A DNA stretch of 52,565 nucleotides from a bacterium. Lineage in GTDB: Bacteria > Ratteibacteria > UBA8468 > B48-G9 > JAFGKM01. Positions 16,823 to 44,399 of this stretch are shown one piece after another; position 1 is the stretch's first letter, and every line of letters begins with the position of its first letter. The stretch is taken from the NCBI GenBank assembly GCA_026414725.1, contig JAOAIL010000001.1:1-52565 (forward strand). The letters are read 5' to 3'. The notes under the pieces were generated by a model. The model searched no databases, had not been told where the DNA came from, and saw nothing but the letters and a program-made list of their open reading frames with translations. The position numbers and the translations under genes were made by a program.

Positions 16823-17857
16823 TTAAGGTGTTATTATTATCTTCAGGCCCTCTTTTTTTTCTGCCTTTTCAAGTCCTGTTTTTATCTCTTCCAGCGGATA
16901 TCGGTGTGTTATATATCTACCAGGATTTATCCTGCCTGAAGAGATAAGGTCCAGAGCAATCCTGTTATGTAATGGACTTGAACCATGTGTACCAATAACA
17001 AAAAATTCACCATAGTGTACAAGATTACTGTTAAAATTAATAAATGGCTTTTCTTTCGGAAGTCCACCAAAATAGTTAACAGACCCTCTTTTAGATACAA
17101 GTTCCAGAGCAATCTCCTGTGCCTGATGGACACCTGCTGCTACTATAACCCTGTCAGCCATCTTGCCATCAGTAAGGTCAGTAATTACTTTCTTTATATC
17201 TTCCTTCCCCATATCCACCAGTATTGCTCCTGTAAATTCAGCCATTTTTATCCTATCTGATGAAACATCCGCGAGAAAGACCCTTCCTGCTCCTGTATTC
17301 TTTGCAAGTTCTGCATGGAGACATCCTATAGGACCTGCACCGAGTATTAAAACAGTATCCCCTACTTCTATACGGCTTAACAACTGGCCATTAATTACAC
17401 AGGCAAGTGGTTCCGCCAGAGATGCATATTCAAAAGATACATTATCAGGAATTTTATTTACACATCCATTCCTCACTGCATCCTCTGGCACAAGCATATA
17501 TTCTGCGAACCCACCATCATAATGATAGCCAATTGCCTTAAGGTTATCACACATTGACTGGTATCCCTTTCTGCAGTAATAACATCTACCACATGGAATA
17601 GCAGGAGCAACTGCTACACGGTCCCCTTCTTTCAGTCCAGAAACATTTTTCCCAACCACACTTATAACACCACTCACCTCATGACCTGTAATACGAGGGA
17701 AAATGATATGTTTATGCCCGTAATGAAAAACCTTTACATCTGTCCCGCATATAGCACAACTTTTAACTTTTATAACAACCTCATTATCCCCGGGGACAGG
17801 AACTGGAACCCCCTCTATAGAAATCTCCTCAGGTCTTTTAAGAACTGCTGCTTTCAT
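16823..17857 (-). CDS. Zinc-dependent alcohol/polyol dehydrogenase (MDR family)
   Basis: A medium-chain dehydrogenase of 344 residues in the sorbitol/threonine/galactitol dehydrogenase group. Catalytic zinc ligands are Cys in CAICGTD and His-Glu in GHEVSG. The structural zinc site is CGRCYYCRKGYQSMC. The NAD-binding Rossmann motif is LGAGPIGC. It probably oxidises a polyol or sugar to a keto-sugar, which fits the neighbouring mannitol-phosphate dehydrogenase; the exact substrate is unknown. I chose the ATG at 17857 (MKAAVLKRPEE, the family's usual N-terminus, preceded by GAGAGG); an ATG at 17869 would add four residues. It overlaps the mtlD 3' end by 20 nt. Confidence 0.92.
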   Translation of the reverse strand: MKAAVLKRPEEISIEGVPVPVPGDNEVVIKVKSCAICGTDVKVFHYGHKHIIFPRITGHEVSGVISVVGKNVSGLKEGDRVAVAPAIPCGRCYYCRKGYQSMCDNLKAIGYHYDGGFAEYMLVPEDAVRNGCVNKIPDNVSFEYASLAEPLACVINGQLLSRIEVGDTVLILGAGPIGCLHAELAKNTGAGRVFLADVSSDRIKMAEFTGAILVDMGKEDIKKVITDLTDGKMADRVIVAAGVHQAQEIALELVSKRGSVNYFGGLPKEKPFINFNSNLVHYGEFFVIGTHGSSPLHNRIALDLISSGRINPGRYITHRYPLEEIKTGLEKAEKKEGLKIIITP

Positions 17858-19022
17858 TAATCCTCTCATAATAATACCCTATCTTATCAATAATCTCTCT
17901 TTCTTCTATCTTAGAGACCTCTTTAAGTATATAAAAAATACCCTTCTCTTTTATCATCTTCTGCATCTCCATCGCGCTTTTATCTTCTGGATAATTATAA
18001 CACAGGCAGGTAGCCATAACAAAACATATTTTCTCAGGGTATATACCCTGAGAAAGGCATAGATTTATCGCACCTGCAATCCTATCATTATGTCCTATTT
18101 TTCTTAAAGGGTCTCTCCCAACCCTGAATACAGTATCCTTGAGTAGTTTATTGCCAAACCTTTTTACAAGGTCGTTGATGTATTCATCTATCTCAGAAGT
18201 ATTAAAATTATGTTTTTTTATAAGTGCTGCACGTGTTTCACTCACAACTTCATCAAAGATATCTCTTATATCAGGGTTCTCAAGTGCTTCCCATATATAG
18301 GTATAACCTTTAAGATATCCTAAATACGCGAGGCAGGCATGTGATAGATTATGAATAAATAACTTTAACTCTTCATAAGGGAAAAGGTCTTCCACAGGAT
18401 ATAATCCTTTGATTGGGGGAATATCTCCTCTGAATTTTTTCTTCTCCACCGGAAGTATATTATATGGTTCAACAGTAACCAAAAGAGGGTACTTTTTTCT
18501 CATATCATCAGAGAGAGGTGCCACCATCCTGCTTACAACACTCTCTATAAGTCCTGTGCGGTTTTCTAAAAAGGACATGCCACCAGATGAAAGGTATTTT
18601 TTGATTTCTTCTTTCAGAATATCTGAACTGCCGAGAAGATTCTCACATATTACCACATTGAAATATGAATCAGGGAATATCTCTGCCTTTCTATCTATCC
18701 CATCTGCTAAAAGAGGAGCTAATGACTTAATATTATTTGCACCGACAGCAGTAAAAACAACATCTGTATCTACAAGAATCTGTGAAATTTTTTCTCTATC
18801 TGAAAAATGTATTGCAGAAAGGTCTGTTATTAACTTTTCTTCTTTTCTATCATTACCGAGCAACCATAAGGGATACTCTTTCTTTTCATTTAGCATATTA
18901 ACAACTTCTTCCACCACATCTACAAATACCAGATGATAACCTGAACTGTGGCATATATCTCCGATAAATCCCCTTCCTATCTGTCCTGCCCCGAATATTA
19001 CCACCTTTCTCTTTTCTATCAA
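17838..19022 (-). CDS. mtlD: Mannitol-1-phosphate 5-dehydrogenase family protein
   Basis: The 394-residue product is a polyol-specific long-chain dehydrogenase. Its N-terminal Rossmann motif is FGAGQIGRGFIG (about 10-21), and its body matches MtlD (VFTAVGANNIKSLAPLL, ENLLGSSDILK, ENRTGLIESVVSRM). Conserved catalytic-region residues lie in LFIHNLSHACLAYLGY. It should interconvert mannitol-1-phosphate and fructose-6-phosphate, though related polyol phosphates are possible. The start codon is TTG, well supported by AGGAGA 6 nt upstream and by the family N-terminus. No mannitol PTS gene is nearby, so polyol uptake must occur by another route. Confidence 0.88.
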   Translation of the reverse strand: MIEKRKVVIFGAGQIGRGFIGDICHSSGYHLVFVDVVEEVVNMLNEKKEYPLWLLGNDRKEEKLITDLSAIHFSDREKISQILVDTDVVFTAVGANNIKSLAPLLADGIDRKAEIFPDSYFNVVICENLLGSSDILKEEIKKYLSSGGMSFLENRTGLIESVVSRMVAPLSDDMRKKYPLLVTVEPYNILPVEKKKFRGDIPPIKGLYPVEDLFPYEELKLFIHNLSHACLAYLGYLKGYTYIWEALENPDIRDIFDEVVSETRAALIKKHNFNTSEIDEYINDLVKRFGNKLLKDTVFRVGRDPLRKIGHNDRIAGAINLCLSQGIYPEKICFVMATCLCYNYPEDKSAMEMQKMIKEKGIFYILKEVSKIEEREIIDKIGYYYERINESSSS

Positions 19023-42814: not shown

Positions 42815-42818
42815 AGGA

Positions 42819-43433
42819 TTATCTGGTTTGTTCCAGTAGAATTTCCTGAAAGAGCCGAGCAACGGTAGATTTTCTCCTTTTCGCTCTTATCATTGCAATA
42901 AATTTTTCTGCACGGCGGATACTAAAATCCTTAGAGATTTCTATCTCTGGAAGGGTATAAAAGAGACGGGATTTTGCAGGAGAAAAATACAGAAAATCAA
43001 TAAGTGCCTTTTCCTGTGTTGCAATATAAAATCCTTCCTTTGATTTTTTATATCCACAGAAAAACGACGGCTGGATATGATGGATTGAAACATTACCTAA
43101 TGGGGTTCTGAACAAGCGAGTTCTTGAAAGGGAAACAATATACAATATATTCGGTACCTGAGAGATAATTCCGTAATAATAAAGCGCACTTTGTAAAGAA
43201 ATATAATAAGGCAGAGGACTGGTTAAATATTCTGCTAAATTCCATAGTGTTACTTTATCTTGTATAACCCATAATCCTCTCTTCACATTCACTACATATC
43301 CTGAATCTCTTAATCTCTCCATAATCTTGCTTGCATTTGCTTTTCTCACATTAAGACATTGAGAAACATCATCTGTTTTCAAAACAGGTTGGTTTAATTG
43401 CAAAATTTTTATATATGCATCTACAAGTTTCAT
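42819..43433 (-). CDS. abiEi: AbiEi-family type IV antitoxin / transcriptional regulator
   Basis: The 204-residue product has an N-terminal winged-helix region (about 10-60, DDVSQCLNVRKANASKIMER...GYVVNVKRGLW) and the AbiEi C-terminal pattern (YYISLQSALYYYGI, ATQEKALIDFLYF). In the AbiE system this protein opposes the AbiEii toxin and represses its own promoter by binding inverted repeats. Its start overlaps the toxin stop (ATGA). Here it follows the toxin gene, the reverse of the usual abiEi-abiEii order. Confidence 0.85.
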   Translation of the reverse strand: MKLVDAYIKILQLNQPVLKTDDVSQCLNVRKANASKIMERLRDSGYVVNVKRGLWVIQDKVTLWNLAEYLTSPLPYYISLQSALYYYGIISQVPNILYIVSLSRTRLFRTPLGNVSIHHIQPSFFCGYKKSKEGFYIATQEKALIDFLYFSPAKSRLFYTLPEIEISKDFSIRRAEKFIAMIRAKRRKSTVARLFQEILLEQTR

Positions 43434-44203
43434 TGTTTATCACTACCTTCTATCACTTCAATTATCTTTAAACGGATTGTATCCCAGACATCCTCCGAAT
43501 CATATACATTTCTATCATCCGGAGAAAGATAAGAAATAACCTGACTTTTAAAAATATCATAATTGATTGAGAAAATATTGTTTTTTGTCTTTGATATTGT
43601 TATTTTATCCAGATTTTTAAGTATTTTGGAAGTATCTACGCCCATTATTATTAAAAGATATGTATCAAAAATATCTCTCGCCTGTGGAATTTTTCTTGAT
43701 GAGATCGCAACTATCTTCTGTAAAAAAGATGCCTCCGCAGTATAATGGCGAACCAGCACAGGAGCTATTTCATATTTTTTAAGGATTATTGGGTCCACTG
43801 CTTCAAATCTGCTTTCTGTTTTTCCCACATCTCTTCTTGAAAACTCTATTTTTGTTGGTATATATGTCTTCGTTTGTCCGTAACCAAGAGATAATTTCCA
43901 TCTCTGTGTTGTTTCTGTCTGCTTGGACTCTGTTATATTTCCAATAGTCAATCCTTTTACAGAAAGTGCCTCTTTAAATGTAGAAGACCTCAATATCCTG
44001 TTTACATCTTCCCTGAATTTTTGAACAGATATATCCTGTAGGTCAAAGTCAATATCTTCTGAATATCTCGGACTTTTGAAGAAAAACCTCAGATTACAAC
44101 CACCTTTAAGAACATAATGCTTACGGTCTATCTTCTGCGACAAAAAAAGAAGAAAAACCAACTGAAAACATTCCACTCTTTCTTCTATATTAAGAACCTT
44201 CAC
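43430..44203 (-). CDS. abiEii: AbiEii-family nucleotidyltransferase toxin
   Basis: The 257-residue product carries the AbiEii/MenT nucleotidyltransferase motif LKGGCNLRFFFKSPRYSEDI followed by DFDL, which includes the metal-binding Asp pair, then KIEFSRRD and a helical C-terminus with SRKIPQARDIFDTYLL. Such toxins transfer nucleotides, in known cases onto tRNA, and are bacteriostatic; AbiE also aborts phage infection. The start codon is GTG at 44203, decided by GAGGAG upstream. It is the first gene of the pair and lies 33 nt after the -10 box of a strong promoter with a palindromic operator. Confidence 0.88.
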   Translation of the reverse strand: MKVLNIEERVECFQLVFLLFLSQKIDRKHYVLKGGCNLRFFFKSPRYSEDIDFDLQDISVQKFREDVNRILRSSTFKEALSVKGLTIGNITESKQTETTQRWKLSLGYGQTKTYIPTKIEFSRRDVGKTESRFEAVDPIILKKYEIAPVLVRHYTAEASFLQKIVAISSRKIPQARDIFDTYLLIIMGVDTSKILKNLDKITISKTKNNIFSINYDIFKSQVISYLSPDDRNVYDSEDVWDTIRLKIIEVIEGSDKQ

Positions 44204-44236
44204 TTTTCTCCTCTGTTCTTCTATCTCTCTATTTAT

Positions 44237-44265
44237 ATATTACCTGAAATTGACATATATGTCAA
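44237..44265 (-). promoter_or_regulatory. Promoter of the AbiE pair
   Basis: On the minus strand: perfect TTGACA (44265-44260), a 17-nt spacer and TAATAT (44242-44237). The predicted leader is about 26-30 nt before the GTG of abiEii. Confidence 0.75.
44250..44265. promoter_or_regulatory. 16-bp palindrome, candidate AbiEi operator
   Basis: TTGACATATATGTCAA is a perfect palindrome that contains the -35 box of the AbiE promoter on one strand and a -35 box of an opposite promoter on the other. A bound regulator would block both. Autoregulation by AbiEi through inverted repeats is known in the family; binding to this site is inference. Confidence 0.65.
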
Positions 44266-44278
44266 CTTCTTGTATTAT
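44250..44278 (+). promoter_or_regulatory. Second, divergent promoter from the same palindrome
   Basis: Plus strand: perfect TTGACA (44250-44255), 17-nt spacer and TATTAT (44273-44278). The region 44279-44399 downstream holds only a 12-codon frame (MWIFIENSDVMR, from 44282) and two small hairpins (GGGA/TCCC at 44355-44373 and ATCTC/GAGAT at 44374-44388). A transcript would then run antisense into lpdA. No gene for it to serve is visible. Confidence 0.5.
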
Positions 44279-44399
44279 ATTATGTGGATTTTTATTGAAA
44301 ATAGCGATGTAATGCGATAAAATCATCATTACCCGTTATCCTTCACTAATATTAGGGAGAATAAATATTTCCCATCTCAAATAGAGATTATATAAATAT

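Follow-up and report, generated by a model that had tools for sequence, protein, structure and literature searches.

A putative AbiEi operator covering the promoter of a toxin-first AbiE operon

In AbiE systems the regulator gene usually precedes the nucleotidyltransferase gene, an order that is descriptive rather than defining (PMC3985639). In S. agalactiae the operon is autorepressed when two AbiEi monomers occupy inverted repeats that overlie its promoter (PMC3985639, PMC7319586). These repeats have 23-bp arms with N3 between them, the -35 lies inside IR1 and the promoter spacer is 17 bp (PMC3985639). In the M. tuberculosis pair Rv2827c/Rv2826c (MenA4/MenT4) an AbiEi-like autorepressor acts at 23-bp inverted repeats over its own promoter (PMC7319586). 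AbiEi autoregulation has so far been studied in a few systems of the antitoxin-first kind. Symmetry is also a property of bidirectional promoters in E. coli and Salmonella, where it lets RNA polymerase bind both ways and the opposite RNA is often non-coding (PMC12825309, PMC10268837). Here we describe the promoter region of an AbiE-type operon found in a 52.6-kb stretch of DNA (the window) from a 1.5-Mb bacterial genome assembled in 76 contigs.

The operon and its promoter region

Two minus-strand genes that overlap by ATGA at positions 43430-43433 probably form a two-gene operon (Table 1). The first product matches Pfam PF08843 (8e-21) and PADLOC AbiEii (1.5e-16), as expected of an AbiEii/DUF1814 nucleotidyltransferase, and the best fold matches to its AF2 model (pLDDT 93.9) are JHP933 and MenT3/MenT4. 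The second product matches PADLOC AbiEi (5.7e-27). Its AF2 model (pLDDT 91.5) combines a winged-HTH with a C-terminal domain and is matched best by 6y8q, the AbiEi of S. agalactiae (E 4e-7). The antitoxin also matches NCBIfam TAA_AbiEi at 4.9e-14, which is under the curated cut-off of that family, and no AbiEi domain match was returned by the Pfam search. A 27-nt leader containing AGGAG is predicted between the minus-strand transcription start and the toxin gene. The toxin gene comes first and the antitoxin gene second, the reverse of the usual AbiE order, and the same reversed order was found in all 25 close relatives from named genomes (L032-L056). Because the protein families, the operon structure and the inverted repeats over the promoter are those of AbiE while gene order differs, the locus is best filed as a putative toxin-first variant of the AbiE type IV toxin-antitoxin systems.

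The initial annotation had described a palindrome that gives each strand a TTGACA hexamer, followed on either side by a 17-nt spacer and a -10. All of these elements were confirmed at their coordinates. The accompanying claim of an AbiE-type operon with a palindromic operator overlapping its promoter is likewise supported. The symmetry, however, reaches 22 bp to either side of the axis, well beyond the 16 bp that had been noticed. Transcription starts are predicted from promoter position at about 44230 on the minus strand and about 44285 on the plus strand, roughly 55 bp apart. Nowhere else in the genome does the 16-mer occur, even with up to two mismatches allowed.

Table 1. Features of the AbiE module and its promoter region (positions in the window)
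Feature	Position	Strand	Remarks
Whole AbiE module	42815-44399		Insertion flanked by the 3' ends of lpd and an aminotransferase gene; insert ends approximate
AbiEi-type antitoxin gene	42819-43433	-	204 aa; second in operon; winged-HTH and C-terminal domain
AbiEii-type nucleotidyltransferase toxin gene	43430-44203	-	257 aa; GTG start; first in operon
Toxin Shine-Dalgarno AGGAG	44208-44212	-	4 nt before GTG
Imperfect dyad of 44 bp, putative operator	44236-44279		Axis between 44257 and 44258; symmetric at 18/22 positions on each side
Operon promoter -10 TAATAT	44242-44237	-	4/6, with T1, A2 and T6; inside block TATTTATATATTAC, which is kept in L003
Minus-strand -35 TTGACA	44265-44260	-	Perfect; 17-nt spacer to -10
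Perfect palindrome TTGACATATATGTCAA	44250-44265	both	Contains both -35 hexamers
Plus-strand -35 TTGACA	44250-44255	+	Perfect; 17-nt spacer to -10
Opposite-strand -10-like TATTAT	44273-44278	+	5/6; not kept in L003; probably incidental

Taken alone, the sequence of the window is only modestly above chance, which is suggestive, not decisive. Markov-1 simulation of 52.6 kb gave an expectation of about 1.6 perfect 16-bp palindromes per window, and 2 were seen. Loosely defined back-to-back promoters with a shared -35 were expected about 0.8 times in such a window, and 1 was seen. For TTGACA-N4-TGTCAA in exactly this arrangement the expectation falls to 0.006 per window and 0.16 per genome. What sets the palindrome clear of chance is its conservation across relatives, not the single sequence. 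The other palindrome in the window, a perfect 20-bp CTCAGGGTATATACCCTGAG at 18033-18052, was set aside as it lies within a coding gene, a 394-aa ORF on the minus strand (17838-19022).

The module, about 1.6 kb long, sits between two convergent genes. Two sister species of the genus (L076 in G004 and L077 in G003) carry an empty site at which the aminotransferase gene adjoins lpd directly, and the module has thus been gained or lost as a unit. With such empty sites in both species, promoter and operon behave as a single insert. The aminotransferase-lpd junction showed no clear target duplication. The only relative with the same insertion is the syntenic locus L003 of the same genus, whose toxin is 78% identical. 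The palindrome is identical there at 16/16 positions, whereas the whole intergenic region is about 51% identical and the part distal to the plus-strand -10 only 39.5%. Conservation of the palindrome, proposed in the initial annotation as a check, was thus found in L003, and counterparts exist in other phyla.

The dyad in toxin-first relatives

Dyads of the same geometry were found at the same place in about 20 toxin-first relatives from several phyla. The -35 lies on the axis and the outer arms contain both -10s. According to their locus labels, the relatives with a dyad upstream of the toxin include Lentisphaerae, Nitrospirae, Gammaproteobacteria, Verrucomicrobia/Opitutae, Deltaproteobacteria, Bdellovibrionales, Oligoflexales and others. 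The family consensus is ATAATACnnnTAnTTGACATnTnTGTCAAnTnnnGGTATTAT, in which the two TTGACA hexamers form the inner arms and the outer arms read AATAC...GTATT in most relatives. In L035 and L046 the dyad is perfect or near-perfect over 48-50 bp. L062, which was found outside the first set, has an 18/20 dyad, and L064 and L059 have none. The symmetric layout had at first been thought unusual. Judged by these loci it is a family trait that recurs across toxin-first relatives and is not peculiar to the window.

Each locus was compared with its own shuffles under the same symmetry maximisation, and the dyad was significant (p<0.05) in 23/30 toxin-first loci, a fairer figure than the arm-exchange counts. 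The seven loci without a significant dyad are L003 (borderline, p 0.056), L007, L038, L041, L050, L053 and L055, some of which have recognisable sites that are imperfect or off-centre. In the arm-exchange counts, for which the axis was placed in each locus by maximum symmetry and the loci were mostly picked for a visible dyad, arm-to-arm symmetry gave 410 matches versus 303 ± 11.5 with arms exchanged between loci; 381 versus 319 ± 10 with arms exchanged within clades, assigned roughly by organism label; and 213 versus 156 ± 8 in shuffles of 12 divergent loci. Arms paired at 83% in register and at 29-48% when slid by 1-3 columns, an excess that the choice of loci has partly built in. Mismatches between the arms showed little bias of G-T over A-C (26 versus 20), as expected for DNA and not for RNA.

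The toxin ATG lies exactly at axis+27, 6 nt after the -10, in ten relatives. These ten start codons would coincide with the predicted transcription start, which points to translation of a leaderless mRNA. Loci in which transcription would begin at the toxin ATG include L035, L046 and L054. Because the start codons sit at this position the forward promoter is probably real, and the placement favours the forward -10 as the genuine one. Leaders of about ten nucleotides are found in the Opitutae loci, and a leader with a Shine-Dalgarno sequence in the genus of the window.

A covariance model was built from 21 sequences, that of the window included. In the whole genome it matched 44233-44284 on the minus strand (E about 5e-9) and on the plus strand (E 3e-5), and no other site. 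A scan of 386 genomes with the same model matched five, and it is no proof of generality because four matches are AbiE loci that the model already represents, and the fifth is unrelated. This last match (L079, about 1500-1555, in another genome) is a long palindrome, TATATTACCACTAGTTATAA...TTATAACTAGTGGTAATATA, immediately upstream of the coding sequence of an HTH plus ATPase-like protein; it may be a similar self-operator of an unrelated regulator, or chance. Since the model also matched this palindrome, AbiE cannot be diagnosed from the motif alone. Toxin profile searches found one relative among viral contigs, without a clear dyad, and the plasmid search found one distant relative. Wider genome samples yielded few further members, among them L061, whose operator is nearly the same as that of L044 and brings no new information.

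The recognition helix of the antitoxin carries Q33 in L035, L040, L046 and L054, all of which have non-TTGACA cores. A connection of residue 33 with the operator core is no more than suggested by this, as the four loci look related. A sister toxin-first group (L004, L058, L063 and L065) has a different AT-rich palindrome, approximately TTATGTATTG.AATTTA...AATTATAATACATAAT; in three of these loci it includes a TATAAT immediately ahead of the toxin ATG.

Autorepression and the opposite-strand promoter

We consider it highly probable that the dyad is an operator at which AbiEi represses its own operon, and that this putative binding site covers the whole promoter. Binding of the antitoxin is inferred from knowledge of the family, from the adjacency of its gene and from the lack of other matching sites in the genome. 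Because AbiEi of S. agalactiae acts in this way, the protein would be expected to occupy both half-sites and block RNA polymerase. Two copies of AbiEi would bind the half-sites through their winged HTH, cover the -35 and the -10 and exclude the polymerase. When the level of AbiEi falls, the minus-strand promoter would make the abiEii-abiEi mRNA. A two-fold symmetric operator placed exactly on a promoter would also create a mirror promoter on the other strand. This may yield a weak, short antisense RNA, most likely as a by-product and not as a second output. The AbiEi autoregulation suggested in the initial annotation is likely by analogy with the family and from the conserved dyad, with the difference that the operon opens with the toxin and not with AbiEi.

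The initial annotation had also proposed that one operator controls the operon and an opposite transcript together. In such a scheme the operator would govern a functional plus-strand RNA, either antisense to the end of lpd or tuning the operon through competition for RNA polymerase. The plus-strand promoter has a perfect -35 and a better -10 than the minus strand. Across the family the reverse -10s are only somewhat worse than the forward ones, with T1, A2 and T6 kept in 10/23 loci versus 14/23, and some loci have the start of a divergent gene nearby, such as the YhcH-family gene of L032. However, no gene precedes the convergent lpd on the plus strand, the module lies between convergent genes and is missing from that site in the sister species, and the plus-strand -10 has been lost in L003, where the minus-strand one survives. 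The genes on the far side are also unrelated between loci, apart from the syntenic pair in the genus of the window and two DUF4143 ATPases; their orientation is mixed, directed toward the operator in about half of the loci, so that co-directional neighbours are about as frequent as divergent ones. A meaningful opposite transcript is thus not borne out, and we regard a second output as unlikely. Operator symmetry by itself would lead one to expect a reverse promoter. The opposite-strand promoter is probably incidental, a consequence of operator symmetry.

We also wondered whether the mirror promoter might serve a purpose of its own. The shared -35 would let polymerase load either way; unproductive loading in reverse and the leaderless toxin translation predicted in many members would then jointly keep toxin output low until derepression controlled by AbiEi. 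We hold this to be quite doubtful.

It is very improbable that the palindrome acts in RNA, as a terminator or as an insulator against read-through from lpd, instead of as a DNA operator. Minus-strand RNA from 44204-44399 does fold more stably than its shuffles (z -3.65) with the palindrome stem included, and lpd is transcribed toward the palindrome. Against this, perfect dyads have no loop, the mismatches between arms show no strong preference for G-U, and the distance to the -10 is fixed, as is that to the start codon in many loci. Dyads are kept even where the upstream gene is divergent, and neither a terminator-like site at the palindrome nor an Rfam match was found. Least credible of all is chance symmetry in an AT-rich intergenic region, which could draw on the expectation of about one such palindrome and one loose shared -35 per window but is contradicted by conservation and covariation of the dyad across phyla.

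Comparison with known systems

In the open-access literature we found neither toxin-first AbiE operators nor this dyad described. One compact device is shared by a toxin-first lineage spread over several phyla: the axis falls on the -35, each arm holds a -10, and the toxin often has a predicted leaderless start 27 nt from the axis. The half-site, approximately ATAC...TA.TTGACAT, offers an operator code that is readily testable. One may ask how an operon with the toxin gene in front holds its toxin below its antitoxin. It also suggests that what look like back-to-back promoters can follow plainly from the symmetry of an operator.

Canonical-order abiE loci from the same and other genomes (L010, L011, L013, L014, L016, L019 and L025) also have dyads close to where the operon begins, each spanning about 40 bp. 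They differ in that the antitoxin comes first and in the motif and its placement, and several share TTTAGCAAT|ATGGCTAAA. In some of them the axis lies very near the predicted start of the antitoxin.

The locus is not a bidirectional promoter of the kind described in E. coli and Salmonella, as far as its predicted starts indicate. Those promoters share a -10 and their starts are usually 18 bp apart, whereas here the -35 is shared and the predicted distance is about 55 bp. The toxin fold matches MenT4, but the M. tuberculosis operator is made up of two pairs of repeats, four in all, with 13-bp gaps and stands before an antitoxin-first operon, whereas a single gapless dyad is found here. S. agalactiae AbiE is alike in its AbiEii-type nucleotidyltransferase and winged-HTH AbiEi, in its bicistronic operon and in its long inverted repeats over the promoter. 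There the antitoxin comes first, the motif is another one and the -35, TTGCTT, lies in one arm. In the present locus the toxin comes first, the axis coincides with the -35, and each outer arm holds a -10.
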